Source: Lentzea waywayandensis
Lineage (GTDB): Bacteria; Actinomycetota; Actinomycetes; Mycobacteriales; Pseudonocardiaceae
Assembly: GCF_900115955.1 (NCBI RefSeq)
Contig: NZ_FOYL01000001.1
Span: 1,054,001-1,118,000 of the forward strand
DNA length: 64,000 nt
Reading direction: 5' to 3'
Shown: in pieces, positions 32,888 to 58,784 of the stretch
Layout: each line of letters opens with the position of its first letter
Position numbering within the stretch: the stretch's first letter is position 1
Made by a program: the position numbers and the translations under genes
The notes under the pieces: generated by a model
Told to the model about the DNA's origin: nothing
What the model saw: the letters and a program-made list of their open reading frames with translations, nothing else
Databases searched by the model: none

Positions 32888-34288
32888 GTGGACGACCGGC
32901 AGCTGGCCGCGATCCCGCAGCGCCTGCGGGCGTCGTGGCTGCGCAGCGAGCGGTACGGCGTACCCGAGGACGAGGTCCGGCCGGTCTTCACCGGCACGGT
33001 CGACACCACTTCGCTGTTCTACGAGTGCGGCCACGAGGTGCTGCGCGGCCTGCACGCCACGTTGTCCAACGAGCCCATCAGCCTGATGATCACCGACAGC
33101 GAGGGCCTGGTGCTGACCAGGCTGTGCACGGACCCGGCGATCGTCCGCTCGCTCGACCGCGTCTCGCTGGCCCCCGGCTTCTACTTCGCCGAGAACAACG
33201 CCGGCACGAACGGCCTGGGCCTCGCGCTCGCCGACCGCACCGCGACCCTCGTCCGCGCCGCCGAGCACTACTGCACGGGCCTGCGCGGCTACACGTGCGC
33301 TGCCGTGCCGGTGCTCGACCCGGTGTCCGGCGCGCTGGCGGGCAGTGTGAACCTCACGACCTGGTCCGACCAGTCGTCCGACCTGCTGCTGGCACTCGCC
33401 CAGGCCGCGGCGGGCAACACGGCGGCGTTGATGCTGGCCCGTGCCTCAGGCCGCAGGGCCCGTCCCGCCCCGCGCGGCGAGGTGTTCCGCGTCTACGCCG
33501 GCCGCGTGCGGCCACCACGGCTGTCCGCGGCCTGGACGTCCGCGGTGGCCACGGCGGTCGAGGCCATGCTGGACGACCGCGTCGTGGCCGTCGTCGGCGA
33601 ACCGGGCGCGGGCAAGACGGCGCTCGCCACCCTCGCCCGCCGCACGGTCCGCCCCCGCGAACGCCTGCTCAACGCGCGCCCGCCGGCACCGGACGACGTC
33701 GACTCGTGGTTGCGCCTGTGGACCCCGGAACTCGGCAAGGCCGACACCTGCGTCGTCGTCTCGGACGTCGACGCACTGCCCGCGTGGGCCGCGTCCTCGT
33801 TGGCACCGCTGCTGACCGGCTTCGCCCTGACCGCGACCGCCGCGTTGCCGGACGCGTTGGCGCCGTTGGTGGACGTCGTGGTGGAGGCGCCGGCGCTGCG
33901 GTTCCGCCCGGACGACGTCCTCCCGCTGGCCCACTACTTCGCGCACCGCGACCGGGGCCGCGAGGTCACGTTCACCTCGGCCGCCGTGCGCGCGTTGCTG
34001 TCGTACGAGTGGCCGGAGAACACCAGGCAGCTGCGCCAGGTCGTGCGCGTCGCCGCCGCCCGTTCGGACGTGATCGACGTGCAGCACCTGCCCGCCGAGG
34101 TGTTCACCAGCGTCGGCCACCGGCTGAGCAGGCTCCAGGTCCTGGAACGCGACGAGATCGTGCGCTGCCTGACCGCGCCGGGCGCGACGATCGCGCAGGC
34201 GTCCGCCGAGCTCGGCATCGGGCGGGCGACGATCTACCGCAAGATGGCGCAGTACGGCATCAAGGCCGATCAGCTGCGGGGCTGGTGA
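32888..34288 (+). CDS. AcoR/MimR-like GAF-AAA-Fis transcriptional activator
   Basis: A 466-aa regulator. The N-terminal third is a GAF sensor domain (LRASWLRSERYGV at its start, LMITDSEGLVLTR, GTNGLGLAL, RGYTCAAVPVLD). The middle is a reduced AAA module with Walker A GEPGAGKT and Walker-B-like CVVVSDVDA. The C-terminus has a WPENTRQLRQVV segment and a Fis helix-turn-helix (AQASAELGIGRATIYRKM). The GAFTGA loop that contacts sigma-54 is absent, as in actinobacterial relatives that work with other sigma factors. I chose GTG 32888 (GAGGAGG at 32876-32882); the longer frame from 32804 would run through the operator. It should activate the divergent amidohydrolase operon. The 3' end overlaps the convergent hydrolase by 29 bp. 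Confidence 0.88.
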   Translation: MDDRQLAAIPQRLRASWLRSERYGVPEDEVRPVFTGTVDTTSLFYECGHEVLRGLHATLSNEPISLMITDSEGLVLTRLCTDPAIVRSLDRVSLAPGFYFAENNAGTNGLGLALADRTATLVRAAEHYCTGLRGYTCAAVPVLDPVSGALAGSVNLTTWSDQSSDLLLALAQAAAGNTAALMLARASGRRARPAPRGEVFRVYAGRVRPPRLSAAWTSAVATAVEAMLDDRVVAVVGEPGAGKTALATLARRTVRPRERLLNARPPAPDDVDSWLRLWTPELGKADTCVVVSDVDALPAWAASSLAPLLTGFALTATAALPDALAPLVDVVVEAPALRFRPDDVLPLAHYFAHRDRGREVTFTSAAVRALLSYEWPENTRQLRQVVRVAAARSDVIDVQHLPAEVFTSVGHRLSRLQVLERDEIVRCLTAPGATIAQASAELGIGRATIYRKMAQYGIKADQLRGW

Positions 34289-35354
34289 CGGCGTTCGCGA
34301 TCCGCAGCGTCATCAGCTGCTGTGAGCTGTCGCGGACCGTCGGCGTGAACGAGTACGCGATGCGCCGCTGCCCGTCCCGCGTCGAGAACATGCCCGCGTT
34401 GAAGCCGTACCACTCCCCCGTCTTGCCCCACACCTCGACGCCGTTGATCGTGAAGGTCTGCAAGCCTGTCGCGTACGAGGCGGGCGAACCGTCCACCATG
34501 GACACCTTGGGCACGGTGAACATCTTCTCCAGCAGGTCTTTCCGGACAAGCCTGCCGTAGAACAAGGCGGCGATGAACCTGGTGAGGTCACCGGTCGTCG
34601 AGACCATGTCGCCCTCGCCGTGGGCCCTGGAGGAGTTGTAGTCGCTCACGTCGACCAGCCCCTGACCCGGCACGTTCAGATAACCGTGCACGTGCGAGCC
34701 GCGGATCTTCGTCTCGTTGCGGCCCGGCACGTAGGTCCTGGTGAGCCCGAGCGGCCGGGCGATGCGCTTGTCCACTTCCTGCGCCAGATCGTGGCCGGTG
34801 ACCTTCTCGATGATCATCGTGGCGAGCAGGTAGTTGATGCCCCGGTACTCCTGCTTGGTACCGGCCTCGAACTTCGGTTCGGTCGCGGGGACCAACGCCC
34901 TGAGCTGTTCGGGGGTCCACTGGTCGTAGCGGTGCGCGAGGACCTTCTCCGGCGTGCTCAGGTCGGGGTAGCCGACCTCGTTCGGGATTCCGCTGGTGTG
35001 GTTGAGGAGTTGCCCGACCGTCACCGCGTCGATGGTCTCCGGCAGGTCGGGGAGGTAGTGCCGGACCTTCGTGTCCAGGCCGAGCCTGCGTTCCGCCACC
35101 AGTTGCAACGCGACCGTCGCCACGAACACCTTGGTGACGCTGCCGATCCGGAACCGGTCGTCCGGCCGCACCGGGCGTCCTTGCTCCGCGACACCTTCCG
35201 CGCCGTACCAACGGCCCGCCGGGCCCGCCACCCGCAGTTGTGCCGCCGTCACCACCGGGTGCTCCAGGTCGGCGATGGCCGCGTGCAGCAGTTCTGGCTG
35301 CAGCGGCGGCAGAGGAGTCACCGCGACCAAGGCGGCGATCAGGAGTGATTTCAT
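34260..35354 (-). CDS. Secreted serine hydrolase (class C beta-lactamase/D,D-carboxypeptidase family)
   Basis: A 364-aa protein with a signal peptide (about 1-18). The nucleophile motif is S72-V-T-K75 and the third motif appears as K-T-G in VWGKTGEWYG. The second motif, normally Y-x-N, reads Y-R-G-I-N-Y, so the Asn is displaced or lost. The sequence LLNHTSGIP is typical of the family. It acts outside the cytoplasm on peptide or ester substrates; cell-wall peptides are likely. ATG 35354 is chosen because it starts a clean signal peptide, yet it lies inside a 30-bp palindrome and has only GGTG as a weak ribosome site. The frame is open up to 35429 without a better start. Confidence 0.87.
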   Translation of the reverse strand: MKSLLIAALVAVTPLPPLQPELLHAAIADLEHPVVTAAQLRVAGPAGRWYGAEGVAEQGRPVRPDDRFRIGSVTKVFVATVALQLVAERRLGLDTKVRHYLPDLPETIDAVTVGQLLNHTSGIPNEVGYPDLSTPEKVLAHRYDQWTPEQLRALVPATEPKFEAGTKQEYRGINYLLATMIIEKVTGHDLAQEVDKRIARPLGLTRTYVPGRNETKIRGSHVHGYLNVPGQGLVDVSDYNSSRAHGEGDMVSTTGDLTRFIAALFYGRLVRKDLLEKMFTVPKVSMVDGSPASYATGLQTFTINGVEVWGKTGEWYGFNAGMFSTRDGQRRIAYSFTPTVRDSSQQLMTLRIANAVTSPAADRP

Positions 35355-35381
35355 GATCACCACGGTGCCGTGGTGATCATG
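35352..35381. promoter_or_regulatory. 30-bp palindrome covering the serine hydrolase start codon
   Basis: Two perfect 14-bp arms, CATGATCACCACGG at 35352-35365 and its reverse complement at 35368-35381, are separated by only TG. The ATG start codon of the hydrolase (35354-35352) forms the edge of one arm. As DNA it could bind a dimeric repressor; as RNA it would sequester the start codon. With a 2-bp centre a DNA operator is more likely than a stable hairpin. Confidence 0.7.
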
Positions 35382-35407
35382 TCGCGGAAATGGTGCCGGC
35401 CCCCGCG

Positions 35408-35444
35408 CTCGCGGTAGGGCCAGCACCAAGTCGTTCTACCGCTA
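35408..35444 (-). terminator. Possible weak hairpin after purQ
   Basis: GCGGTAG at 35411-35417 pairs with CTACCGC at 35436-35442 at the purQ stop codon on the minus strand, with an 18-base loop. No T-run follows. It could be a weak terminator or mark the end of the purLQ message; the evidence is thin. Confidence 0.3.
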
Positions 35445-39154: not shown

Positions 39155-40369
39155 TCAGATTGGCAACTTTTTGTCCATCCATTGGCATTGATCGCGAGAA
39201 TCAGCCCACTCATCGGTCACCAGGCGCATCTGTTCCACGAAAATCTCACCCAACCCGGTGAGCGTCCCGGACGCCGCCAAAGAACGGATCGCGGCGCGGG
39301 TGGCACTACTCCAGCGGTCGAATTCCGTGCGTGCTTCCCGGTCGTCGTACCGACTCCAGAAAGCGGACACGGCAAGATGTGCGTATACACCCTGCAGAAC
39401 GGCCACGGGTGGCCGGGGATCCTTGCGCCAAGCCACCCTCATCCGGCGCGGGGAAAGGCTGTCGACCAAAGGGAACAGGTCCAGCAGCGCGGACAGCTTG
39501 CCGTGCTGCACCTCGTGTGCAAGCGCCACGGCCATCACGCGCGGGTCCTCCGGCAGGGACATCGCGACGCAGCCGAACGCGTTCGCGAACGTCAGCGCGG
39601 CGTGGCCGGAGCCGGACGTGGAGAGCGGGGTGAGGACGGACAGCGTCGCCGCGACCTCCTCGGCCACCTGACGGTGCCGCGTGACGAGCAGGCGCCACGC
39701 CTCGGAGAAGCGCTCCCACCAGCGGTTTTCCTTGCCCGACGGCAGGGTGTCGTGGGCGCGGACCTGGTCGGGGAGATTCTGCTCGCCGGTGCCGTCGACC
39801 GCCAGCGTCAGCCTCAGGCCGTCGTGTTCGGCGTGCAGCCGGCCCACCGGCCGCCAGTGTGCGGTCGCGCCGCCGGACAGGTCGCCGTGCGCCACGCCAT
39901 CGGACGCGAAACTGCCTTCTGCCGTGGTCACGACGCACACCGGGCGTGAGGTCACGGGGCGGAACGTGCCCAGCGACGGCAGCACCACGGCGGCGGCACC
40001 TGGTACCTCCACGACGCCCTCGACGCCGGCGTGGACCCGTGCGGAGGCCAGTACGGCGGCGAGCTGTTCGGGCGCGGCCGCGGCGCCCGCTTGCAGCCGG
40101 GCCGTCGTGCGCACCGCCCACGCACCCACCCTCGGGTAGTCCAGAACGGCCCGCATCGCCGCTGTCGGCACGGCTCTGAGCTGCTCATACGTGGTTCGGG
40201 TCGCCGGGGCGGCAGGGTGGCCGCCCCGTTCGGCCAGGTCGACCATGGCGTGGATGAGCAGGAGGGTCCGGCTGCGGCGCACCTCCGCGAGCAGGGCCAC
40301 GGCGGCCGGTCCGCCGCCCCCGCTCGCCAGCGCGGTGAACATGGCCGGGTCCATCTCGTGCGTGGTCAT
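39155..40369 (-). CDS. HExxH-type putative peptide beta-hydroxylase (FxsBH C-terminal half as a separate gene)
   Basis: A 404-aa protein with the metal motif H285-E-V-Q-H289 (AVALAHEVQHGKLSAL), as in the alpha-ketoglutarate/HExxH peptide beta-hydroxylase family that is often fused to FxsB-type radical SAM enzymes. The N-terminal helical segment and the middle beta-rich domain fit that fold. Here it is a free-standing gene whose ATG overlaps the radical SAM stop (ATGA), so the two halves are made together. The motif is intact, so unlike the annotated inactivated fusions it may be active. The expected substrate is the FxsA-like peptide encoded on the other strand. Confidence 0.82.
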   Translation of the reverse strand: MTTHEMDPAMFTALASGGGGPAAVALLAEVRRSRTLLLIHAMVDLAERGGHPAAPATRTTYEQLRAVPTAAMRAVLDYPRVGAWAVRTTARLQAGAAAAPEQLAAVLASARVHAGVEGVVEVPGAAAVVLPSLGTFRPVTSRPVCVVTTAEGSFASDGVAHGDLSGGATAHWRPVGRLHAEHDGLRLTLAVDGTGEQNLPDQVRAHDTLPSGKENRWWERFSEAWRLLVTRHRQVAEEVAATLSVLTPLSTSGSGHAALTFANAFGCVAMSLPEDPRVMAVALAHEVQHGKLSALLDLFPLVDSLSPRRMRVAWRKDPRPPVAVLQGVYAHLAVSAFWSRYDDREARTEFDRWSSATRAAIRSLAASGTLTGLGEIFVEQMRLVTDEWADSRDQCQWMDKKLPI

Positions 40370-41457
40370 CGCACGGCTCCTGGCAGCGCCGCGACGTCCC
40401 GGGTCAGGCGGTCTCTGACGTGCGAGATCAGGGCGTAGAGGTCCGCGCAGTACACCGACGGGTTCAGGAACGAGCCGGCCCGGTAGCGGTGCGCGTAGAC
40501 CCCGCCTCCGCACACTTCGCGCAGGTCACAGGCCTCGCAGGTCGCGGAGAGGCGGGTGCTCTGCTGGGCGATCACGCCGGGAGCGCGCAACGCGTCGTCG
40601 AGGGACGAGGAGCCGATGACCAGGCCGGTCGCGGCGGCGCCCTCGAACGCCGAGGTCAGCATGTCCGAGACCTCGATGGCGCCGTCGGTCTCGATCACCA
40701 CCGTGGAGGGCGCGGACGTGCCGAAGCCCTCGACCGAGGAACGTCCGCCGAGCAACACGTTGATGATCTCCGCGAAGCCCCTGACCTGCGTTTCACCGCC
40801 CTCGTACCAGCGGTCGAACACCGCGGTCAGCCAGCCCGCGTAGGACCCGGCGGGCGGTGGCGAGGACCAGTTCGCGTTCGGCAGCAGGAAGTCCACGGCC
40901 GGTGGCGCGAACGGCAGCAATGCCTCGTACGTCCGCACCGGGTCGTTCGCGAGGTCGATCGTGCAGAGCAGGCCGCCGTAGATCGACCGTCCGGCGAGCA
41001 GGCGCACGGCCGCGGCCACCGCGTCGTAGCTGCCGCTGCCGTCGGGCCGGCGCCGGTGCCGGTCGTGCGCCTCGCGGTCGCCGTCGATACTCACGCCGAC
41101 ACGAACTCCCAGGTCAGTGAGCACGTCAACGGTCGGTGCGTCGAGCAGGACCCCGTTGGTCTGCATCGCGAACCGCACGGGCGCGGCAGCACCGATGACA
41201 CGTACGGCCTCGGCCACACGGGCCACGCCGGCCAGCAACGGCTCACCGCCGTGGAACACCACCTCGACCTCGTCGAGCCCGTGCGCGCGTACGTGCTCCT
41301 CGATCCGCAGCGCCACCTGACGCACGACCTCTGGCGACATGGTGCGGTCGCGCTGCCGCCAGCGCTGGTCCCGCATCGTGTAGACGTAGCAGTGATCGCA
41401 CGCCAGATCGCACCGCGCGTGCATCTTGAGGATCACCTGCCGGAATGGTCTCCCCAC
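40366..41457 (-). CDS. fxsB: FxsB-type radical SAM/SPASM peptide maturase
   Basis: A 363-aa radical SAM enzyme. The cluster motif is C16-x3-C20-x2-C23 (KMHARCDLACDHCYVYTM), followed by the SAM motif around FHGGEPLL. The C-terminal SPASM-like region has CEACDLREVCGGG and a later Cys (VYCADLY). FxsB enzymes act on FxsA peptides; related three-residue cyclophane enzymes join an aromatic side chain to the beta carbon of the residue two positions on. GTG 41457 has GGAAG upstream. It diverges from the fxsA-like gene at 41670 and is coupled to the HExxH gene. Confidence 0.9.
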   Translation of the reverse strand: MGRPFRQVILKMHARCDLACDHCYVYTMRDQRWRQRDRTMSPEVVRQVALRIEEHVRAHGLDEVEVVFHGGEPLLAGVARVAEAVRVIGAAAPVRFAMQTNGVLLDAPTVDVLTDLGVRVGVSIDGDREAHDRHRRRPDGSGSYDAVAAAVRLLAGRSIYGGLLCTIDLANDPVRTYEALLPFAPPAVDFLLPNANWSSPPPAGSYAGWLTAVFDRWYEGGETQVRGFAEIINVLLGGRSSVEGFGTSAPSTVVIETDGAIEVSDMLTSAFEGAAATGLVIGSSSLDDALRAPGVIAQQSTRLSATCEACDLREVCGGGVYAHRYRAGSFLNPSVYCADLYALISHVRDRLTRDVAALPGAVR

Positions 41458-41669
41458 GTCACACCGCTTCCGCCACGATTGATGGAATCACCGCCCAGGT
41501 GGCCGATCGACACACCTCACGGCTCCCTCGATAATGCCGGACACCAAACTCATCGGAGTGAAGAATCCACCCAATTAGATTGTGCCGTCCGCTAACACGT
41601 CAAGGCCACTCCGAGACTCTACTATTGTGTGGCACCGCAAAGGGGCGGAGATGGGACGGTGCCGGACGC

Positions 41670-41843
41670 ATGATGGAGCAGCACGACGCCAGCCTGAAGT
41701 CGGATCTGGTCGATCTGAGCGGGGTGGATTTTGATCAGCTCGACGCACTGCCCTCGTCGGTTCTGACCAGATCTCTGCACCGGGTGCTGCGGGAAAACGC
41801 GTCGAACATCGACCACTACGCGGCCTTCCAGAACACGATCTGA
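41670..41843 (+). CDS. fxsA: FxsA-like precursor peptide with F-x-N-x-x C-terminus
   Basis: A 57-aa peptide. An acidic leader (DLVDLSGVDFDQL) is followed by a helical recognition part (SSVLTRSLHRVLRE) and a C-terminus A-A-F53-Q-N55-T-I57. FxsA peptides end F-x-S-x-x; here the third residue is Asn instead of Ser, with the same spacing to the carboxyl end. Context is decisive: the gene lies between the divergent FxsB radical SAM gene and an FxsT-like gene 24 bp downstream. ATG 41670 (immediately followed by a second ATG) is the likely start, with a weak ribosome site. Predicted product: a peptide with a Phe-Asn cyclophane, perhaps hydroxylated. Confidence 0.85.
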   Translation: MMEQHDASLKSDLVDLSGVDFDQLDALPSSVLTRSLHRVLRENASNIDHYAAFQNTI

Positions 41844-41867
41844 CGACAGCTCACCCGTGGAGCGAGG

Positions 41868-44800
41868 ATGACCGACGACCGACCACCACCCGGCAAACCG
41901 AGGATCGTCGCGTTCACGTCGCCGACGAACGGGGCCTGGCGCACCGAGGTGGTCGCGAACGTCGCGTGGACGCTCGCCGCGGCGGGCAGGCGCGTGGCGA
42001 TCGCGGACTGGGGCAGCGACGCCCCGCACGTGCACGACTACCTCCAGCCGTTCCAGGCCCGGACGCTGAGCGTCGGGGAACTGCTCGACGAGGTCCTGGA
42101 CGACACGAGGTTCAGCACGCCCGCGCGGCACCTGCTCTTCGACGAGAAGGTGTACCCGCGGATGGAGGCGCGGCGCTACGAGCTGCCGGGCGGCCTCGGG
42201 CGCATCGACGTCCTCGCCTCCCCCGAGCCGGGCACGCCGGTGCGCGGGTTCGATCCGGGGGACCGCGATCTCGGCGAGGTCGAGACGCTGCGGGCGGGCA
42301 TCCAGCGTTCGATCTACGACCACGTGCTGATCGACTCCCCCGCGCCGCTGTCCCCCGGCCTGGCGGCCAAGATGGCGCGCCTGTGCGACGTGGTCGCGCT
42401 CTGCTTCGAGCCGCAGAGCAGCAGCATCCGGCAGTCCGCGTGGTTCGCGGGCGAGGTGTGGGACGCCGCCCCGGTCGGCATCCGGGTGCTCGCCGTGCCG
42501 GTGCGTCACGACGAGACGGACAGGGACCGGGCCGAACGCACGCTCACCCTGGTCGGCGCGGCGTTCCACTCGTTGCTCACGCACGAGACGGACGAGTTCG
42601 GCAGGACCATGTCCGCCGAGGTGGTGGGCGTCCCACCGCACGACGACGGTTCCCCCGCGAAGACGCTCGCCGTGCTGGCCTGCGACGACGCGGCGCAGCC
42701 GGAGGCGTACCAGCGGCTCGTCACGGCCATCGGCGGCAAGGCGGCCGGAACGCCGCGCACGCTCACGGTGGACCTGCTGGAGAGCTATCGGCGCAGCGTC
42801 GGCCTGTTGCCCACCCTCGTCGCGCTGGAGTGGGCGCCGCGGGACCGTCCGTGGGCGGACTGGGTGCGCGCGCAGCTGATCGCCGCCGGGGCGCAGGTGG
42901 CCGACAGCGCGGAGGCTCCCGGCACCACGCTCGTGCGCATCTGTTCACAGCACCCGCTGCCACCAACGGCGGTGACCGGCCGGACGATCGCCATCACCGT
43001 CGACGAGACCGACCTGCCGCCCGAACTGGCGTCGGCGACGCACGTGCCGCTGGCCGGCCTGGGCGAGAGCACCTCCCGCACCCGAGTCCTCGAAGCGCTC
43101 TCGTTCGTGGCGGGCCCGCCGGGTTCGGGCACCCGCTTTCCCGGTGCCGTCACCAGGAACCAGCGCACCCTGCCGCCCAGGCTCGCCCTGTTCGCCGGAC
43201 GGGGTGCCGAGCTGGAGGCGATGCGGAACGACCTCGCCGGGCCGGACAGCCCGCGCACGTGGTGGCTCACCGGGGCCGCCGGCGTGGGCAAGAGCGAGCT
43301 GGTGAAGGAGTACGCCCACCGGTTCGAGTTCGACTACGAGCACGTCTGGTGGATCCCCGCCGCAGACCGCATGACGATCACGGAGAGCCTGGCGAAGCTG
43401 GCGCGCGTGCTCGGCGTCCCGGCGGAGAACCAGGTCGCCCAGAAGGTGCTGGACCTGCTCGGCCGGGCCGACGAGACCAGGCGCTGGCTGCTCGTCTACG
43501 ACGGCGCGGACGAGCCGGGAGTGCTCGACGGACTGGTGCCCACCCGCGGCCGCGGCCACGTCGTCGTCACCTCGCGGTCGCGACCGAGCCACGTGGACGC
43601 GGTCACCCTCGGCCCGTTCACGCCGGACGACAGCATCGAGTACCTGCGCAACTCCCTCAACGACGTGGGGGAGGCAGGTCTTCGCGAGGTCGCGGACCGC
43701 ACCGCGCACCAACCGCTCGCGTTGCGGCTCGCGCGGGCGTGGATCGTGCGGGCCGCGTGGCAGGCGAGGCAGCAGACCGACTCCCGCCAGAACGCCGAGA
43801 TCCGTGCGGCACAGGAGTTCTGCGCGATATCGGACGCGCTCGGCGACGGCCCGGCCATCCCCCGCACGGTCCAGCTGACCGTGAACACCCTGCGACGGAG
43901 CGAGCTCGGGCGCTCGGTGCTGAGGGTCGCCGCGGTGTGCTCGTTCCTCTCCCCTGACGGCATCGCGCTCTCCCTGCTGCACAAGGTCTCCCTGCTCGCT
44001 GCGGTGTCGGACGCGCTGGACGACGTCGAGCTCGACGGCATGCTGTGGCACGGCGTTTGCTACGGGATGTTCCACGTCTCGTGGCGACGGCCGGGCACGG
44101 TGACCGCGCACCCGTTGCTCCTCTCGCACATCGCCGCGCTCGCGTCCGACGAGGAACTCTCCGCCATCCGCACGGCCGTGCAAGAAGGTCTCGCCGTGAT
44201 CGCGCCGTCGGAGAGCGAACTCGACCAGGCGTGCGCCGGTGAGCTTCGGGAGCTGCGCAAGCACATCGTGCCGAGCGGCGCCCCGTCGTCGGACTCCCTG
44301 GCGGTGCGGCGCTGGCTGGTCAGTCAGATGGGCCACTTCCTGCGCGAAGGCGACCACGAGGCGTGGCGGTTCGCGACGTCGTTGTGCGAGCGGTTGCTGG
44401 AGAACTGGCCGGAACAGGACGCACCGGGGCTGCGCATGCGGTTGCGGTTCCACCTCGGCAACCTCCACCGGTACCTCAACCGGCCGATCGACGCGCTCAC
44501 GGTGGACGAGAACCTGCTCGCGGACCAGCGCCGGATCCTCGGCCGCGAACACCCCAGGACGTTGCGCACCGCACGCGGTGTGGCGCACGGGCAACGGGTC
44601 CTCGGCCTGTTCACGGAAGCGCTCGTCGAGGAACAGGCGACCGTGCGGGGACTTCGGCGGGTGCTGGGCGAGAATCACCCGGACACGTTGCGGGCGACCA
44701 ACAACCTGGCGCAGTCGCTGTTCCTCGCGGGTGAGCCAGGCCAGGCGCTGAAGGTGCAGAGCGCCAACAGGGACCGCAGGCGCGAGGTGGTCGGGCCCGA

Positions 44801-45518
44801 CCACCTCGACGTCTGGTGGTCGGCGTGCAGCATCGGCACCTACCTGCGCGAGCTGGGCCGCTACGACGAGGCGTGGAACGAGCTGCAGACGGCCAAGCAG
44901 CGGGTAGCGCAGCTGCCGGGGGCACCCCGGCACCTGCTGCGGATCAAGTGGAACCAGGCGATCATCCAGCGGCACAGGGGTGACAGCGCCACCGCGAAGG
45001 CCATGTCGTGGGAGGTGCTGACCGAGTACCGGCAGACGTTCGGCGAGGACCACCCCGACACGAGGGCGTGCAAGCTCAGCTTCGCCGCCGACCACTTCGC
45101 GGTGGGCGAGTTCGACGTCGCGGTCGACCAGGCGCGCGAATGCCTGAACGGCTACTGGCAGCGCTCCGGCCCGTTCCACGCCTTCTCGCTCATGTGCCAG
45201 CTGGACCACGCGATCTTCCAGCACTGGCTGGGAAACGCTCCGGAGGTGGCGCTGCTGTCGGTCAAGGAGGCTCGCGGCGGACTGGTCACCCGGCTCGGCG
45301 ACGTGCACCCGTGGGCATTGGCCGGACGCCTCGCGCACGCCGTGGTGCTCGGCCGGACCTCGGACACCGACCTCGGCCGGCACCTGCTCGGGGAGGTCCA
45401 CGACGACTGCGTCGAGTACCTCGGGGTGGCGCATCCGACGACGAGGACCGCGGCGGCGAACCTGGACGTGTCCGCGGACGAATGGCAATGCGTAGTGCTC
45501 GACGTACCGGAGATGTGA
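41868..45518 (+). CDS. fxsT: FxsT-like MinD/TIR/NB-ARC/TPR protein
   Basis: A 1216-aa STAND-type protein. Residues 10-270 resemble the MinD/ParA-like domain of FxsT, but where FxsT has K-G-G-T-G-R-T the P-loop reads T20-N-G-A-W-R-T26, so nucleotide binding there is probably lost. Residues about 320-420 look like a degenerate TIR-like domain (LVALEWAPRDRPWADWVRAQL). From about 440 an NB-ARC module follows (LFAGRGAELEAM, intact Walker A GAAGVGKS near 469-476, LLVYDGADEP as Walker B). The last about 350 residues are TPR repeats with NHPDTLRATNNLAQSLF and similar units. GGAG lies 7 bp before the ATG. It is likely the sensor or regulator that reads the modified FxsA-like peptide; its role is unproven in the family. 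Confidence 0.88.
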   Translation: MTDDRPPPGKPRIVAFTSPTNGAWRTEVVANVAWTLAAAGRRVAIADWGSDAPHVHDYLQPFQARTLSVGELLDEVLDDTRFSTPARHLLFDEKVYPRMEARRYELPGGLGRIDVLASPEPGTPVRGFDPGDRDLGEVETLRAGIQRSIYDHVLIDSPAPLSPGLAAKMARLCDVVALCFEPQSSSIRQSAWFAGEVWDAAPVGIRVLAVPVRHDETDRDRAERTLTLVGAAFHSLLTHETDEFGRTMSAEVVGVPPHDDGSPAKTLAVLACDDAAQPEAYQRLVTAIGGKAAGTPRTLTVDLLESYRRSVGLLPTLVALEWAPRDRPWADWVRAQLIAAGAQVADSAEAPGTTLVRICSQHPLPPTAVTGRTIAITVDETDLPPELASATHVPLAGLGESTSRTRVLEALSFVAGPPGSGTRFPGAVTRNQRTLPPRLALFAGRGAELEAMRNDLAGPDSPRTWWLTGAAGVGKSELVKEYAHRFEFDYEHVWWIPAADRMTITESLAKLARVLGVPAENQVAQKVLDLLGRADETRRWLLVYDGADEPGVLDGLVPTRGRGHVVVTSRSRPSHVDAVTLGPFTPDDSIEYLRNSLNDVGEAGLREVADRTAHQPLALRLARAWIVRAAWQARQQTDSRQNAEIRAAQEFCAISDALGDGPAIPRTVQLTVNTLRRSELGRSVLRVAAVCSFLSPDGIALSLLHKVSLLAAVSDALDDVELDGMLWHGVCYGMFHVSWRRPGTVTAHPLLLSHIAALASDEELSAIRTAVQEGLAVIAPSESELDQACAGELRELRKHIVPSGAPSSDSLAVRRWLVSQMGHFLREGDHEAWRFATSLCERLLENWPEQDAPGLRMRLRFHLGNLHRYLNRPIDALTVDENLLADQRRILGREHPRTLRTARGVAHGQRVLGLFTEALVEEQATVRGLRRVLGENHPDTLRATNNLAQSLFLAGEPGQALKVQSANRDRRREVVGPDHLDVWWSACSIGTYLRELGRYDEAWNELQTAKQRVAQLPGAPRHLLRIKWNQAIIQRHRGDSATAKAMSWEVLTEYRQTFGEDHPDTRACKLSFAADHFAVGEFDVAVDQARECLNGYWQRSGPFHAFSLMCQLDHAIFQHWLGNAPEVALLSVKEARGGLVTRLGDVHPWALAGRLAHAVVLGRTSDTDLGRHLLGEVHDDCVEYLGVAHPTTRTAAANLDVSADEWQCVVLDVPEM

Positions 45519-45532
45519 AGGAGGCGGTTGAA

Positions 45533-46510
45533 GTGACTGGACCACATGTGCACAAGGGGCCGCACGTCGACGCCACGTGGGACGACGTCGTGGAAACGAT
45601 GCACGAGGCGATGACCGGTGACCACATGTTGTGCCACCTCGGGCACTACACGGACGGGCAGATGGACGTCGCCGTCGACGTGCTGGGCCGGCGGCCGGAT
45701 CATCCGGAGTGTCACCGCGACGAGTACGTGCGGACCGCGCGCCGCCTCAGCACGTTCGTGAGCGAACTGGAACGCGAGTTGCTCCCGGTGCGCACCGGCT
45801 CGTTGATCAGGGTGGTGCTGCAGGCGGCGACCGGCGCGGTGTACTGCGACGCGGTGGTGCCCGACCAGCACGTGATCGCGTTCATCCGCAACGGCGAGCA
45901 GCCGGAACCGGTGACGTGGAGCGAGGTTCCGCTGGTGCGGCTCGCGGACAGACGCACCACCAAGGTGGCGACCTCGTTGCGGCTCAGGCTGAGCAGGCAG
46001 GCCCTGAACCTGGGCGGCTGGCTCACCGAACGGCTGCCCGACGCGGACGCCGATCCCGCCCTGGTACCCGTCGCGCCACCCGGTGCGGTGCACACCTCCG
46101 GCGACCTCGGCGGCCCGATTCCCGAGCAGTGCCAGAAGGTCGTCGATCCGCGCGACCTGCACCTCGTGTCGTGGTGGGTCGACGACGAACCGGTGTTCAC
46201 CGTCGACGTGTTCGACGATCCCAAGGTGCGCCGGTTCTTCAACAAGAGCATCAGCGTGGCGCAACGACGGCGGTTCTACGACGCGCTGGGCGGCAGGCTG
46301 CCCTCGATCGTCACGCAGTTCGGCCGCATGTGCCGCGAGTCGCTGGGCGGCAGGCTGGAACGCGCGGTGCTGGACGTCGAGCAGGGCGCGATCTACTACC
46401 TGCGCGTGCGAGCACGCCAGTACCTCGTCGGCGTCACGCTGAACCAGAACGAGGTCTCCCCGTCCGACGACAAGATCGCCAGGCTGGGCGTCACCGTCCG
46501 GTCCTTGTGA
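45533..46510 (+). CDS. Unrecognised soluble protein in the Fxs operon
   Basis: A 325-aa protein of no family I recognise. The N-terminus is His-rich (GPHVHKGPHVDATW, then HMLCHLGHY). A helical stretch (EYVRTARRLSTFVSELERELL) and alternating strands follow. It has no signal peptide or membrane segment. I chose GTG 45533, which has AAGGAGG at 8 bp; the frame continues upstream inside fxsT and is not used. It starts 15 bp after fxsT and overlaps the antiporter start (TGATG), so it belongs to the fxsA-fxsT transcript. Confidence 0.75.
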   Translation: MTGPHVHKGPHVDATWDDVVETMHEAMTGDHMLCHLGHYTDGQMDVAVDVLGRRPDHPECHRDEYVRTARRLSTFVSELERELLPVRTGSLIRVVLQAATGAVYCDAVVPDQHVIAFIRNGEQPEPVTWSEVPLVRLADRRTTKVATSLRLRLSRQALNLGGWLTERLPDADADPALVPVAPPGAVHTSGDLGGPIPEQCQKVVDPRDLHLVSWWVDDEPVFTVDVFDDPKVRRFFNKSISVAQRRRFYDALGGRLPSIVTQFGRMCRESLGGRLERAVLDVEQGAIYYLRVRARQYLVGVTLNQNEVSPSDDKIARLGVTVRSL

Positions 46511-47640
46511 TGACGACCGGCGCGTTCAGCGCGACGATGCGGCGCCTGCTGCTGCTCCTGGTGGCCGTGGGCATCGGCTGGGCGCTGGCGCGCGGCACCG
46601 GCATGGACGACCTCCCCTCGTCCGGCTGGTACTTCACCGCGGCCACGGCGTTGCTCGCGATCGGTCTGTACAACAGCACGTTCGGCATCGACATCGCGGA
46701 CGTCCGCCGGCACCTGCGCATCGTCGTCACCGCGGTGACCCTGGGCGTGCTGGTGAAAGCGGCGCTGATCGCGACGGTCATGTGGCTCGCGTTCTCCTCC
46801 CCCGCGTACCTGGTGCTGGGCATCGCGGTCGCGCAGATCGACCCGCTGTCCACGGCGGCGGCGATGGGGTCGTCCCGGTTGTCGAAGCGGGCCAAGAGCG
46901 TGCTGGCGGCGTGGGCGGCGTTCGACGACCCGATCACCATGCTGCTCACCATCTACCTCTCCGCGCTGGCGCTGAGAGCGCAGGGCGCGACGGGCGGGAC
47001 GTTGGCGCAGGGCGGGCTGTTCTCCTTCGGCACCAACGTGATCGCGAACCTGCTGCTCGCCGCCGCCGGTCTCGGCCTGTGGTGGTCGCTGTCGAGGATC
47101 AGGCCGGAACGCGTCCGGCTGGTGGCCCAGCTGGTGCTCGTGGCCGCCGTGCTCGCGGTCGGCGTGTGGCAGTTCCTGATGCTCGGCGTGGCGATCGTCG
47201 GCCTGGTGGCTCGGCCACCGATCGCGGCCGTGCTCGACCGGATCACGCGGGTGGCCTTCCTGACGGCCTCGGTCCTGCTGGGGTTCCTGCTCGTCGGCGG
47301 AGTCCTGGTGCCGCAGGGAGTCGTGCTGGGGCTGGCCGCGTTCGGCGCGCAGGTGCTGGTGGGACTCGTGATCACGGGTGGGCTGGCGCGCAGGGACCGC
47401 ACCTACATCGCGTTCGCGCAGCAGAACGGGATCACCGCGATCATCCTGGTCCTGTTGCTGGAACCGGATTTCCCCGGCACCGCGGCCGTGGTGGCGCCGG
47501 CCGTTCTGGTGATCAACACCCTGCACGGCGTGTTCACCGGGTTCTGCGAGAACTACAGCGACGCGTTGCTGCGCCGGCTCAGCGGCTCTCCGCGACCGAC
47601 TCGAGCACGGCCGCCTGGACTTGGCCGCTCAGAAGGTTGA
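46510..47640 (+). CDS. Cation:proton antiporter-like membrane protein
   Basis: A 376-aa polytopic membrane protein with about ten membrane segments. The CPA-superfamily features are VAQIDPLSTAAAMG (like the T-D-P motif) and AAWAAFDDPITMLLTIYLS (an F-D-D-P site where the transport aspartates lie). A late segment, AFAQQNGITAIILVLLL, also matches sodium/proton antiporters. It is translationally coupled to the unknown Fxs-operon gene. The last about 18 residues (SPRPTRARPPGLGRSEG) look untypical and overlap the convergent ATPase gene by 62 bp, which suggests the original stop was lost. Confidence 0.82.
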   Translation: MTTGAFSATMRRLLLLLVAVGIGWALARGTGMDDLPSSGWYFTAATALLAIGLYNSTFGIDIADVRRHLRIVVTAVTLGVLVKAALIATVMWLAFSSPAYLVLGIAVAQIDPLSTAAAMGSSRLSKRAKSVLAAWAAFDDPITMLLTIYLSALALRAQGATGGTLAQGGLFSFGTNVIANLLLAAAGLGLWWSLSRIRPERVRLVAQLVLVAAVLAVGVWQFLMLGVAIVGLVARPPIAAVLDRITRVAFLTASVLLGFLLVGGVLVPQGVVLGLAAFGAQVLVGLVITGGLARRDRTYIAFAQQNGITAIILVLLLEPDFPGTAAVVAPAVLVINTLHGVFTGFCENYSDALLRRLSGSPRPTRARPPGLGRSEG

Positions 47641-49879
47641 ACACCTCCTGCGCCTCACCGACCTGGGGCGGCAGCAGAACGTTGCCGTCGAGCAGTTGCG
47701 GGCTGAACCCGTCGAGATCTTCCAGCCGGTAGAACGGGACGTACTCGTAGACCGTGTCGTACGCGAGGCACAGGGCGCTCAGCCTGTCCTTGTCCGCCGG
47801 GTACGGGTCGCCGGACGAGCTCGGCACGTACGAGCGGTACCACTCGTTGATGCTGTCCCGGAACGTGACCAGCAACGTGCGCAGCATCGCGCCCACGCCC
47901 ACGGCGGAGAACAGGTGCGGCGACCGCAGTTGTCCTCGTACGGCGACCCGCGCGTCGATGGCGTTCGCGGAGTCACCGGACGCGGCGGCGAACATGGTCC
48001 GCAGCGTCGCGTCGACCTGGTCCAGTCCGTCCAAGAAGGACTGTGCTCTGGTGAACAGCACCATCACCGGGGGAGGCAGGCGCAGTGGCGGGGACTCGGT
48101 CCCGGGGTGGGCCGCCCGGTCCGCGGTGCTGAGCTCGGTGAGCTCGCGCTGGATCTGGCCGAGCGAGCGTTCCGACGAGGAACGCATGGCCGTCAACGTC
48201 TTCAGCGCCTGTTCGAGCATCCGCTGGGTGTTCGCCTGCTGCCTGCCCAGGCGCCGGAACCGTTCCTCGCCCAGCACGAGCGTGTCGTCGCGGTCGAGCG
48301 TCCGCAGCTGCCGTTCCAGCACCGACGACAGCGTCTCGGTGAAGGTCCAGTGGTCGTAGGAGATCGGTTCCTCGCTGAACGCCTCGCCCAGCTCGGACAC
48401 GAAGTCGGCGTTCAGCAGGCCGACGACGACGAGCAGCACCTGCCGCTGCTCGGCGGATGTCTGCAGGAACGTCGCCCTGCTGACGAGCGCGTCGCAGTCG
48501 CCCTGGGTCAGCACGGCGTCGATGAGCACCAGGGCGCAGCCGGCGCCGTCCTCGTCGCCGTAGGGCACCCAGTAGTCGGCGCGCGAGTCGGTCTGCGGGT
48601 CCATCCAGTGATCGCGCTCGTAGCTCAGGCCCAGCGCGGCCAGCACCTGGCGGATCTCGTTGCGCACGTGGTCGGTGCTGCGCGCGCCCGCCTGCTCCCT
48701 GGCCACCTTGCGCACCATGGCCTCGGTGACCAGCGCCCTGGCCGGGTCGCGCGGGCTCAGGTCCATCGCGTGGCGGTAGAGATGGCTGCACAGCCGGATG
48801 ATGCGGCGGGCGTTGCCGTCGGTGAGCTTCACCAGGTACCGCACGGTGTCCTCGGTGAACGGGTGCAGCACCCGGCCGCGGCCGATCGCCTCCTGGCTCT
48901 GCCGGATGTACTCGATGGCGTTCTCGGGGTTCAGCGGCGAGATCAGGATCGTGCGGCCGATGCGTTGCTGCACCGTGCCGCCCAGCTCGTCGAGGTAGTC
49001 GGGCAGTCCGGCGAGCACCAGCAGTGCCTGCGCGCCGGCGAACACCTTGATCAGCTTCTCGAACGCGTCGACGGCGTTCTCGCTCGGTTTCCGGGTGGCC
49101 GACACGACTTTGTTCATCTCGTCGATCGCCAGCACGAACTTCTTCCCACGTGTGCTGTAGAGCAGGGCGATGACGCCCATGGCCTCCAGCGCGAGTTCCT
49201 CCGTGGCGATGGGGGTGTCGACGCCGCGGTCGACCAGCACCGGATCCGGGTAGTGGCCGGACAACCACTCCCAGGCGGCGTCGGCGAAGTCGTGCCGCAG
49301 CAGCAACGGAAGCACGATGCCGAACGCGCGGTTGCGGGTGACCACCTCCAGCCGTTGCCGCAGGCGCGCGAGGTACTTGCTGCCCATGAGGTTCAGCCGG
49401 TCGGAGACCTCGACGGGGTCGACCTCGCCCCGGCGCAACCGGACCGCGATCTCGGCGGTGAGCTCGGACTCCCCCAACGCGTCGGCGAGCACGTCCGCGT
49501 AGAGCTCCCGCACCCGCGCGCAGACGTCGTCACGGCGCAGCTCCGTGCCGATGAGCTGCTTGTAGAGGTCGACGAACGTCGCCGGCCTCGCCTCCAGGAA
49601 CGCGACCCTCGGGCGCCGCTCCTCCGGCACGCTCAGGGCGTGGTGTAGCACCGCGCCGACGAGGTGGCTCTTGCCCGTGCCGTACTCGCCGACGATGGCG
49701 ACCACGGTGCCGGCGGGCAGCGTGGACGGCCGCAGGAAGCTGTCGACGATGCTGATGGCCTCGGTGATGGACGGCGTGGGGATGGAGACCGTGCCGCCGG
49801 AGAACTCGCGCGGCTTCGCGACGGCGGCCATGAGGAACGGATTGTCACTGGGGGCTGGACCCGGATGCTCGCTCATCAC
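47579..49879 (-). CDS. Large P-loop ATPase of an unrecognised three-gene operon
   Basis: A 766-aa ATPase. Walker A is G64-E-Y-G-T-G-K70-S71, Walker B appears as KKFVLAIDEMNKVV near residue 245, and a sensor-like VLAGLPDYLDE follows, as in Orc/AAA or STAND ATPases. After a winged-helix-like segment (ARRIIRLCSHLYRHAM) comes a domain around SYERDHWMDPQTDSRADYWVPYG, then a coiled-coil stretch and a helical C-terminus. I do not recognise the family. It starts with GTG 49879 or ATG 49876, overlapping the upstream NTPase stop. Partners are that smaller NTPase and a membrane lipoprotein. Confidence 0.8.
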   Translation of the reverse strand: MMSEHPGPAPSDNPFLMAAVAKPREFSGGTVSIPTPSITEAISIVDSFLRPSTLPAGTVVAIVGEYGTGKSHLVGAVLHHALSVPEERRPRVAFLEARPATFVDLYKQLIGTELRRDDVCARVRELYADVLADALGESELTAEIAVRLRRGEVDPVEVSDRLNLMGSKYLARLRQRLEVVTRNRAFGIVLPLLLRHDFADAAWEWLSGHYPDPVLVDRGVDTPIATEELALEAMGVIALLYSTRGKKFVLAIDEMNKVVSATRKPSENAVDAFEKLIKVFAGAQALLVLAGLPDYLDELGGTVQQRIGRTILISPLNPENAIEYIRQSQEAIGRGRVLHPFTEDTVRYLVKLTDGNARRIIRLCSHLYRHAMDLSPRDPARALVTEAMVRKVAREQAGARSTDHVRNEIRQVLAALGLSYERDHWMDPQTDSRADYWVPYGDEDGAGCALVLIDAVLTQGDCDALVSRATFLQTSAEQRQVLLVVVGLLNADFVSELGEAFSEEPISYDHWTFTETLSSVLERQLRTLDRDDTLVLGEERFRRLGRQQANTQRMLEQALKTLTAMRSSSERSLGQIQRELTELSTADRAAHPGTESPPLRLPPPVMVLFTRAQSFLDGLDQVDATLRTMFAAASGDSANAIDARVAVRGQLRSPHLFSAVGVGAMLRTLLVTFRDSINEWYRSYVPSSSGDPYPADKDRLSALCLAYDTVYEYVPFYRLEDLDGFSPQLLDGNVLLPPQVGEAQEVFNLLSGQVQAAVLESVAESR

Positions 49880-50796
49880 GTCGTTCCCCGCCTGAAGTAG
49901 AAATCAGTGATGGTGTTGTAGGTCACCTCGTCCGTCAGGCCTGAGCCTATCGGACCCGAATTCGTACGTTCAGCCAGAATCTCCTCGAACAACCGGAAGA
50001 GGAGATTGTGCAGCTCACCGATCGAGAACTCTTTCGCCGCGATCACGGCACGTATCGTTTCCTTTGACACGAACGGGTAAACCACGCCATCCGTTCGGTG
50101 GCCGTTGCGCGCCTGCACGAACGCCCAGCCGTCGTCCGGCTCCAGTTTGCCGACCTCCAGCTGGATCGGCACCGTTCCCTGTTCGGTACTCGCGCTCTTG
50201 ATCTTCGGCCAGTGCGCCCGCACCGCCTCGACCTGGCGGCTCTCCGCGAGGAACACGAGGTTGCGGTGAGTCCAATGCGCGTAGCTCTCGACTTCCTGTT
50301 CGAGTTCGATGCGGGGCAGAAGAATCACGACAGCGGTGTCACCCAGCACGTGGTTGCCCAGATAGCGGTATTTGAGCTTGGGCGCGTACCCGTCCAGCTT
50401 CTTCCGATGTTTCGACGTGAGCATGTCGCGGTCGTCCAGCTCGTCGATCAGACACTGGCAGACCGCTTTCTGCCGTTCTTCGACGGAATCGCTGTCGCGG
50501 CAGGCGTCCGTGAACGAGAACACCAGGCATTGGCCGTCGTCCTGCCGCAGAACGGACTTCAGGTGGGTGGCGCACCGGTTCAGCAACGAACTCTTGCCGC
50601 ACCCGTCCCAGCCGAGCGCCACCACGAGCCTTCCCTTGGCCCGGATCTTCGCCGCGTCCCCGATCGAGGCCTTGAACTGCTCGAACGCGGCCAGGGTGTG
50701 GTCGACCGGCACGTAGAAGTCCTCGTGCGTCGGATCGTCGTGGGGACGGAGCGGGCCGGGGCCGTCGCCGCCGAGCGGAACGAGGTAGGGGTTCAA
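49876..50796 (-). CDS. Second P-loop NTPase of the three-gene operon
   Basis: A 306-aa P-loop protein. Walker A is G62-W-D-G-C-G67-K68-S69 (VVALGWDGCGKSSLLNRC). A later hydrophobic strand, TAVVILLPRIELEQE, may carry Walker B. The rest is charged and helical (SKHRKKLDGYAPKLKYRY). I do not recognise the family. The TTG start has GAGGGGG at about 9 bp and overlaps the lipoprotein stop (TTGA); the stop overlaps the large ATPase start. All three genes are thus coupled at the translation level. Confidence 0.78.
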   Translation of the reverse strand: MNPYLVPLGGDGPGPLRPHDDPTHEDFYVPVDHTLAAFEQFKASIGDAAKIRAKGRLVVALGWDGCGKSSLLNRCATHLKSVLRQDDGQCLVFSFTDACRDSDSVEERQKAVCQCLIDELDDRDMLTSKHRKKLDGYAPKLKYRYLGNHVLGDTAVVILLPRIELEQEVESYAHWTHRNLVFLAESRQVEAVRAHWPKIKSASTEQGTVPIQLEVGKLEPDDGWAFVQARNGHRTDGVVYPFVSKETIRAVIAAKEFSIGELHNLLFRLFEEILAERTNSGPIGSGLTDEVTYNTITDFYFRRGTT

Positions 50797-51611
50797 GCGC
50801 GCGCCCCCTCACCGAACTCGGGCGCGAACAGCTTCTCCGCGTCAGAGGGCCGTTCCAGCGCACGGGCGAGCACTTCGACCCGGCCGTCGAGCTTCGCGGC
50901 CGCCGCGTTCAGTTCAGCGGCACGGGGTCGCAGCTCGGTCCGGTTCCGGTCGAACTGCCAGCCGCTCGCCACGCCGTCGCCGAACGCCATCGCCTCGCCG
51001 CGCAACGTCCTCGGCGCCGTCCAGTCCGGCCACAGCAACGCCGTCACCGCGAACTGGTTGGCGAGCAGGTCCCGTTTGCGCCACAACTCGGCGGCCGACG
51101 GAGGAGTGCCGTCCGTGCTGCCTTTGAGCTGGACGTCGCAGTACTCGCGCACGGCGGCCACGAACTCGTTGCTGGCCGTGCGCAACGAGACCGCGTGCTG
51201 CTTGCCCCGCGTGCGGTCCTCCCGCCGGTTCGCGGTGAACCAGGCCGCCCAGGCACCCGCCCCGGCGACGAGAAGACTCGCCAGCATCGTGAACACCGTG
51301 GACACCCAGACGGGCGACGAACTCGGCGACGCGGGCTTCAGCACCGGTTCCGCGAGAGCGTTGCAGGCCTTGACGAAATCCGCCCGGCGCTGATCGCGCC
51401 ATTCGTCGAACGAGAGCGTTTTACCGCCCACCACCACCCTGTTTCCAAAAGACGTGGAATCCACGAGTTTCAACGAGGCAGCGGCCTCCAGTGTTTCCGA
51501 CTGCCGTCCCTTGGCGGTGCAATAGACCGCGGCGGCATCGGAAACCGTTGGGGCGGAAGCACATCCGGTCAGCAGGAACAGCAGGACGAGGAGCGTCGAC
51601 CGGCCGGCCAT
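50793..51611 (-). CDS. Membrane lipoprotein of the NTPase operon
   Basis: A 272-aa protein. The signal carries a lipobox L-T-G-C17. An outside domain of about 80 residues with one more Cys (AVYCTAK, FVKACNAL) is followed by a membrane helix (about 102-125, VSTVFTMLASLLVAGAGAWAAWF) and a charged helical cytoplasmic part of about 145 residues. This topology links an outer-face lipid anchor to a cytoplasmic domain, as expected for a signal relay to the NTPases. I chose ATG 51611, preceded by GGGGAGGT; the frame continues 27 codons upstream without signal character. The family is not recognised. Confidence 0.77.
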   Translation of the reverse strand: MAGRSTLLVLLFLLTGCASAPTVSDAAAVYCTAKGRQSETLEAAASLKLVDSTSFGNRVVVGGKTLSFDEWRDQRRADFVKACNALAEPVLKPASPSSSPVWVSTVFTMLASLLVAGAGAWAAWFTANRREDRTRGKQHAVSLRTASNEFVAAVREYCDVQLKGSTDGTPPSAAELWRKRDLLANQFAVTALLWPDWTAPRTLRGEAMAFGDGVASGWQFDRNRTELRPRAAELNAAAAKLDGRVEVLARALERPSDAEKLFAPEFGEGARA

Positions 51612-51814
51612 GCGACCTCCCCACGTCCTGAAATCGTCAGCGCACACGCCTTGCATGTCGTTCCCGCTTCCACCCGCGTAACGCCGCGACACCGATCGTG
51701 TACGTCTTTACGCGCAAATTCGATAGGTTCGCCTTGAAGAGACCGTCAATTGACCCCGAACGGACTACCGAAGTAACAGCGGGCGACGCTCGTCCGCTGA
51801 TCTGGGGGACCCAC
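51612..51814. promoter_or_regulatory. Divergent promoter region
   Basis: About 200 bp between the lipoprotein gene (minus) and the DUF6461-like gene (plus). It is richer in A/T around 51690-51780. No boxes can be assigned with confidence. Confidence 0.35.
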
Positions 51815-58758: not shown

Positions 58759-58784
58759 GATTCTTTCCTTTGCTGTTTCGCACG

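Follow-up and report, generated by a model that had tools for sequence, protein, structure and literature searches.

A roadblock-associated Fxs peptide system with an asparagine-variant precursor in Lentzea waywayandensis

What does it mean that the precursor peptide of an Fxs system carries Asn at the position (+2 from the Phe) of the Ser that gives the family its name? The question is raised by an Fxs-type island of the actinomycete Lentzea waywayandensis (10.15 Mb genome), located on contig NZ_FOYL01000001.1 within a stretch of 64,000 nucleotides (positions 1,054,001 to 1,118,000, forward strand) that we analysed as a whole and refer to as the window; coordinates below are those of the window unless a locus is named. 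A preliminary description, made from the letters of the window alone, had treated the Asn as exceptional and had suggested that the whole gene set might be a distinct branch of the system. Here we find that such a branch is marked by the gene neighbourhood, i.e. a roadblock-type gene, a pair of ATPase genes and a cargo gene, and that it is not marked by the Asn. The newer part of the system is its conserved extra genes, which encode a predicted tandem roadblock protein, the ATPase pair and a putative exchangeable membrane cargo, while Asn is common in relatives.

Sequence and family scans delimit an island of nine genes in three transcription-unit-like groups. A minus-strand group (39155–41457) holds the HExxH and FxsB genes, which overlap by 4 bp; divergent from it is a plus-strand group (41670–47640) in which FxsA and FxsT are separated by 24 bp, FxsT and a 325-aa open reading frame (ORF) by 14 bp, and the 325-aa ORF shares one base (tgATGa) with the antiporter gene. 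The third group, TM299–P306–ATP766, runs on the minus strand from 51692 down to 47579, convergent with the fxsA operon and with a 4-bp overlap at each junction. All the genes named in the preliminary description are present, with the FQNTI peptide lying between divergent FxsB and FxsT genes that both score over their cut-offs, and the close coupling it had noted downstream of FxsT is confirmed by the gaps given above. Its gene set had ended with the antiporter (47640), but the three minus-strand genes beyond (47579–51692) belong to the island and extend it to about 51,692. The assignment to an Fxs-type system therefore stands, and what had been missed is the roadblock fold, the downstream ATPases with their third gene, and a further FxN-type Fxs locus elsewhere in this genome. 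The features of the island are as follows.

39155–40369, minus strand: stand-alone HExxH protein (fxsH), 404 amino acids (aa), HEVQH motif; TIGR04267, 135.3 bits (cut-off 40)
40366–41457, minus strand: FxsB, radical SAM/SPASM protein, 363 aa; TIGR04269, 402.8 bits (cut-off 370)
41458–41669, no strand assigned: intergenic region between the divergent fxsB and fxsA genes, with presumed promoters, from the sequence
41670–41843, plus strand: FxsA precursor, 57 aa; TIGR04268, 45 bits (cut-off 28)
41868–45518, plus strand: FxsT, 1216 aa; NF040586, 584.9 bits (cut-off 300)
45533–46510, plus strand: tandem Roadblock/LC7-like protein, 325 aa, by predicted fold
46510–47640, plus strand: CPA/NHE-fold antiporter-like protein, 376 aa; conserved IDP, FDDP and QQNGITA motifs
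47579–49879, minus strand: ATP766, AAA/STAND-type P-loop ATPase, 766 aa; 62-bp overlap with the convergent antiporter gene
49876–50796, minus strand: P306, P-loop NTPase, 306 aa; Walker A GWDGCGKSS (by eye); 4-bp overlap with ATP766
50793–51692, minus strand: TM299, probable lipoprotein; lipobox LLTGC (by eye) and one further membrane helix; start codon uncertain

The evidence for a branch marked by its neighbourhood comes from kinship and from linkage. On a 70-row FxsB tree (L047, L055, L058 and L071, taken as incomplete loci, were left out), presence of the 325-aa gene takes 3 changes, compared with 23.6 in shuffles. Among 150 Pseudonocardiaceae genomes, FxsA is matched in 23 (22 over cut-off), including two of the seven from the same genus, one of which is the own genome. 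Homologues of the 325-aa protein occur in 14 of the 150 at 16 places, all 16 about 3.7–4.1 kb from an FxsA match; ATP766 is found in the same 14 genomes at 17 places, 16 of them in Fxs loci and one alone (in genome G140); and the antiporter in 10 genomes at 10 places, every one in an Fxs locus. All of these genomes fall among the 23 FxsA-positive ones, and co-occurrence with fxsA yields Fisher p-values of 5e-14 for the roadblock gene and 1e-9 for the antiporter gene, computed over genomes that are not independent. In a class-wide sample of 394 genomes, fxsA matches occur in 69 (51 over cut-off) and matches to the 325-aa profile in 23; at genome level, 18 of these 23 contain an FxsA match with E no higher than 1e-3 (11 over cut-off).

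Gene content was compared across 38 roadblock-type loci, the window not counted. FxsB and the HExxH gene were each found in 37, ATP766 in 34, a P306-like gene in 20 and the antiporter in 16; these loci were fetched mostly by FxsB or FxsA, so that the presence of those two is largely by choice, and some end before the P306 position. ATP766 is convergent in all 34 loci that hold it. Two of the loci (L040 and L190) are one contig, and another (L183) is a near copy of L008. Matches to TM299 (E 9e-27 to 2e-4) lie beside or overlap the P306 ORF in eight other loci.

Several single loci deserve mention here. The second Fxs locus of the own genome (L008, 1053–9568), which the same contig holds at a distance of about 0.9 Mb, carries an FxsA ending in YASFQNRL with FxsB, FxsT, HExxH, roadblock and ATP766 genes. 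At L184 (8477–17123; Pseudonocardiaceae genome G110), an FxsA ending in YAAFQSSL stands with HExxH, FxsT, roadblock and ATPase genes and no FxsB match beside them; FxsB is found at another locus of G110, and either modification in trans or loss is possible. L195 (12271–16326), from the same-genus genome G140, has ATP766 (65% identity) and P306 (52%) outside any Fxs gene set, with DNA similarity over most of TM299, and could be a separable module or a relic. L067 (5246–17459) has two roadblock-type genes, of which one neighbours an antiporter gene and the other FxsT.

The place between the roadblock gene and ATP766, which we call the cargo place and compared in 34 loci, is occupied in more than one way. 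It is empty in 14 (gaps of 112 bp or less) and holds the antiporter in another 14, one of which (L182) could accommodate an additional gene. A KAP-family P-loop NTPase occupies it in three loci (by Pfam in L185 and L190; L040 and L190 being one contig), a pentapeptide-repeat protein in two (L008 by Pfam, L183 inferred from the gap and kinship), and the last, L186, has a 511-bp stretch without assignment. The KAP NTPases are about 820–850 aa long (L185, 14943–17408; L190, 14772–17330). By analogy, one exchanged gene in a fixed island would resemble the effector exchange of conflict systems.

The Asn itself is conserved in the lineage of the window, which removes chance mutation as a candidate. 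Eight proteins 84–98% identical to the window FxsA, two of them bearing a Lentzea name, all have AAFQN, followed by TI in six, NA in one and NS in one; a ninth relative (53% identity) has FQN and then extra residues. The two nearest FxsBs by tree path are those of Saccharopolyspora soli, paired with FQNNI, and S. rosea, paired with FQNTI, so the close homologues are not uniformly partnered with F-x-S precursors as a single odd mutation would predict; the third-nearest, L176, is paired with FQSSL.

Asn is also far from rare. Class-wide, the +2 residue is S in 36, N in 8 and A in 3 of 47 assigned tails (59 loci inspected, 52 profile matches, window FxsA included), and in the Pseudonocardiaceae sample it is N in 11, S in 7 and D in one of 19 (27 loci, 23 matches, with two rows from the own genome and L019, a near copy of one of them). 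A protein set obtained with a query of mixed N and S tails, and mostly from Streptomyces, gave S 69, N 46, Q 2, D 1 and A 1 (119 assigned among the best 120 of 473), and loci around related FxsBs gave S 22, N 10, A 4, Q 1 and R 1 (38 assigned from 43 matches), with the aromatic residue being F in 29 and W in 9. Enrichment of N in Pseudonocardiaceae is apparent (N:S 11:7 vs 6:36 elsewhere, p 0.0005), although the rows are not independent. Asn at +2 is thus one of several residues that the family uses there, as judged from these tail counts, and the notion of an exceptional Asn is not supported. At seven Micromonospora/Verrucosispora loci (L035, L042, L043, L045, L046, L081, L084) FxsA has Trp in place of Phe (WQSAIDGDD-like) and an acidic extension, and these tails are natural Trp-x-Ser candidates.

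Whether Asn marks a branch was decided by the FxsB trees. In the first (59 rows), all five Pseudonocardiaceae FxsBs fell in an all-FxN clade (99/96), and Asn as a branch mark was rejected after the addition of 17 FxsBs, six of them FxS. On the second tree (74 rows; L083 as distant, L079 as a long branch and L190 as the same contig as L040 were left out), FxN takes 10 changes (shuffled mean 17.0), the FxsBs of L178 (FxS) and L188 (FxN) are sisters (100/99), and a wider clade of 17 mixes FxN (10), FxS (6) and FxD (1). FxN is present in a separate Streptomyces clade as well (WGFTNAF). Of the suggested distinct branch, then, the branch survives by its neighbourhood and the Asn that was to define it does not.

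The precursor and its two enzymes are recognisable members of known families. FxsA (start ATG at 41670 or 41673) ends exactly in YAAFQNTI, i.e. F53-Q-N55-T-I (FxNxx-COOH), with the motif two residues from the end; it lacks the name-giving Ser and belongs to TIGR04268 by profile, with a variant motif, and by eye it has no recognisable export signal. FxsB, with a CDLACDHC cluster motif and SPASM cysteines (by eye), aligns best to the solved radical SAM domain of ChlB (PDB 9gm3, 257.6 bits), and is by family a cyclophane-forming maturase, from which we infer its reaction. A Phe–Asn bridge would be no new chemistry for such maturases, given that, according to a review (PMC11002830), XncB and OscB make C4(Phe)–Cbeta(Asn) links and MscB joins Phe C4 to Ser Cbeta. 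The HExxH protein aligns over its HExxH and WRxDxRPP region to PDB 22nu (118.6 bits) and to ChlH (8s5f, 23.6 bits), and is a predicted Fe/alpha-ketoglutarate peptide beta-hydroxylase. The solved chain of 22nu and 22ob is labelled 'Radical SAM core domain-containing protein'. A fused radical SAM–HExxH protein hydroxylates Asp and His and needs a preformed cyclophane (PMC12636437), which changes the older reading of the HExxH protein as a peptidase.

FxsT matches NF040586 over residues 435–1203. Before this lie a degenerate MinD/ParA-like (KGGVGR-type) domain at residues 11–188 (NF047398, 33.3 bits, under the cut-off of 90) and a TIR-like stretch at 322–355 (TIR_2, 19.6 bits, under cut-off; the L085 homologue reaches 28.3 bits vs a cut-off of 28). 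The AP-ATPase/STAND domain has a Walker A GAAGVGKS (by eye), with AAA_16 and NB-ARC matches under cut-off, and the matched TPR repeats align to kinesin light chain. Kinesin light chain binds short peptides. The absence of FxsC (TIGR04276) noted in the preliminary description holds for the own genome, which gave no match (nor did the internal control of that search). As a positive control, 16 other genomes carrying FxsB loci were scanned, and the profile was over cut-off in 8 of them. None of the 150 Pseudonocardiaceae genomes has a match over cut-off, and three weak ones below it all fall in genomes without FxsA. Two of the eight FxsC-positive genomes (those of L036 and L053) also carry roadblock-type loci, with FxsC at the same locus or elsewhere in the genome; membership of the branch is therefore compatible with FxsC, whose absence was rejected as a branch mark.

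The remaining proteins are assigned largely by structure. Neither the 325-aa nor the 376-aa ORF has a family match at E 0.01 or a Pfam/NCBIfam match over cut-off. The 325-aa protein has a predicted fold that matches MglB-type Roadblock/LC7 clearly in its first half, the second half giving a middling score, and we take it as a predicted tandem Roadblock/LC7-type protein. The Roadblock/LC7 fold has the order a1-b1-b2-a2-b3-b4-b5-a3, and roadblock proteins are partners of GTPases. The 325-aa protein differs from MglB-type proteins in having two domains per chain and, in the family sample, in matching only at Fxs loci. The 376-aa protein has a predicted fold of the NhaA/NHE/NhaP type (model pLDDT, predicted local distance difference test, 75.8), with no useful match to Pfam, NCBIfam or PDB sequences; the model suggests a CPA/NHE-fold cation antiporter-like protein, for which exchange activity is a prediction only. 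Unlike known CPA/NHE antiporters, it has no sequence match over cut-off and its family-sample matches are confined to Fxs loci. ATP766 has weak AAA_16, AAA_22 and nSTAND1 matches and P306 a weak NACHT match (17.6 bits), all under cut-offs, and TM299 is probably a lipoprotein with one further membrane helix.

Among the nearest described systems is the FxsA/FxsB/FxsT system (TIGR04268, TIGR04269, NF040586), all three proteins being over the curated cut-offs; the island differs from it in the +2 Asn, the HExxH protein as a separate gene, the lack of FxsC in the genome, and the extra roadblock, antiporter, two ATPase and lipoprotein-like genes. The island fits the stand-alone FxSxx-type peptide-processing systems whose AP-ATPase has been described as bearing an inactive MinD/ParA-like domain and for which a peptide toxin or signal was predicted (Kaur et al., 2020; PMC7159879): it has the FxsA-like peptide with zincin-like and radical SAM proteins and the AP-ATPase and TPR parts of the TPR AP-ATPase with TIR and MinD/ParA-like domains, the latter two being under cut-off here. 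Kaur et al. interpret the HExxH protein as a peptidase, whereas here it is a predicted hydroxylase, and a word search of its main text (figures and supplements being outside the search) returned roadblock and antiporter zero times each. ChlB/ChlH (fused as ChlBH), a cyclophane synthase with an alpha-ketoglutarate-dependent HExxH beta-hydroxylase (PMC12636437), includes the nearest solved relative of FxsB and a relative of the HExxH protein, but the window enzymes are unfused, with a different substrate and immune-receptor-like neighbours. The XncB/OscB/MscB triceptide maturases likewise make i to i+2 cyclophanes, but belong to other maturase families with other precursor motifs (PMC11002830).

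Taken together, we consider the island to be a stand-alone conflict-type Fxs system, of a roadblock-associated branch, with an intracellular cyclophane peptide as signal, at a probability of about 45%; most likely, it serves in conflict or in the response to stress. Its parts, their kinship and their linkage are observed, and from them we infer each functional step as follows. FxsB would link the ring of Phe53 to Cbeta of Asn55, so that a three-residue cyclophane lies two positions before the C-terminus of FxsA, and the HExxH protein, using Fe and alpha-ketoglutarate, would then hydroxylate one beta carbon of the bridged peptide. Because no peptide exporter was seen among the neighbours scanned, the peptide may stay in the cell, as a ligand read by the TPRs of FxsT, which would then be a MinD/ParA-TIR-STAND-TPR protein resembling nucleotide-binding leucine-rich-repeat (NLR) receptors. 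For its P-loop partners (P306, ATP766 and the ParA-like part of FxsT), the tandem roadblock protein could be an adaptor or a regulator of nucleotide state. The final gene of the fxsA operon would encode an exchangeable cargo that acts at the membrane; in this island it is the antiporter-like protein, which would alter the balance of ions or protons once the system is triggered. A fuller version, in which the bridged peptide is a guard or alarm ligand for NLR-like FxsT, the roadblock and two ATPases gate the cargo, the enzymes set the chemistry of the ligand, and Asn/Ser/Asp and Phe/Trp diversify it between lineages, is speculative and, taken whole, unlikely.

Several observations weigh against the favoured interpretation. 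Nine of the 23 FxsA-positive Pseudonocardiaceae genomes have no roadblock gene, and five of the 23 roadblock-positive class-wide genomes have no FxsA match; the antiporter is not essential, since the cargo place stands empty in 14 of 34 loci; and the HExxH gene with fxsA but no FxsB match at L184, like ATP766–P306 without Fxs genes at L195, indicates that parts may act apart. Enzymic activity of FxsT is doubtful, with a ParA-like domain that looks degenerate and a TIR-like stretch under cut-off. PADLOC, run on eight proteins, gave no specific defence match: the radical SAM protein had viperin-like matches only, and ATP766 had weak ones to DpdH and mad8. The literature searched, which covers papers in part and leaves several key triceptide papers outside, brought up Kaur et al. 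(2020), reviews and work on other peptides, and yielded no function for the FxsA peptide and no modification, interaction or phenotype of Fxs parts.

Best placed among the alternatives, if still improbable, is an ordinary cluster for a ribosomally synthesised and post-translationally modified peptide (RiPP), in which the Phe–Asn cyclophane peptide is cut off and leaves the cell as a small natural product or as a signal between bacteria, with the neighbouring genes serving its regulation or resistance to it. Both FxsB and the HExxH protein belong to enzyme types typical of RiPP pathways, triceptides are a known peptide class (PMC11002830), and a beta-lactamase/peptidase-type serine hydrolase (34260–35429) and a transglutaminase-like protein (54412–56643) lie nearby, their action on peptides being only putative. 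Against this, the gene scan from 32.8 to 64 kb identified no ABC exporter, and FxsA, which by eye has no recognisable export signal, is accompanied by STAND, roadblock and P-loop proteins.

Housekeeping signalling in stress, development or membrane energetics, with the peptide as an internal signal to the roadblock and P-loop proteins, appears less likely again. Roadblock plus P-loop protein systems include MglA/MglB polarity and the actinobacterial conservons; the MglB fold match and the role of roadblock proteins as GTPase partners would suit this explanation, and an antiporter suggests pH or ion control. The patchy spread of fxsA argues against it (23 of 150 genomes, two of seven in the genus), as do the exchangeable cargo and the TIR/STAND receptor architecture (PMC7159879). 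The proposal implied by the preliminary description, that FxsBs of the Asn branch form a separate catalytic class with a specificity of their own, is the least probable, for although the FxsBs of the window, S. soli and S. rosea form an all-FxN clade (99/95) and FxN rows differ from FxS rows in some columns (e.g. residues 9, 14 and 252, with no correction for kinship or multiple testing), FxN and FxS alternate on the tree, FxN recurs in Streptomyces, and no FxsB column divides all N from all S rows.

Further along the window, on the minus strand (54412–63935), transglutaminase-like, DUF58-like and MoxR-type AAA (57790–58788) genes lie beside a gene for a 1716-aa Ig/cadherin-repeat protein. MoxR proteins are, together with VMAP and vWA, components of VMAP ternary conflict systems.

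Fxs systems are widespread in actinomycetes, and the linked gene set described here gives them concrete partners: the predicted roadblock protein, the antiporter-like protein and the ATPase pair. The natural series of precursors, with Asn, Ser, Asp or Ala at one position and Phe, Trp or His at the other, offers ready substrates for studying maturase specificity, and the exchangeable cargo place suggests that the output of these systems acts at the membrane.

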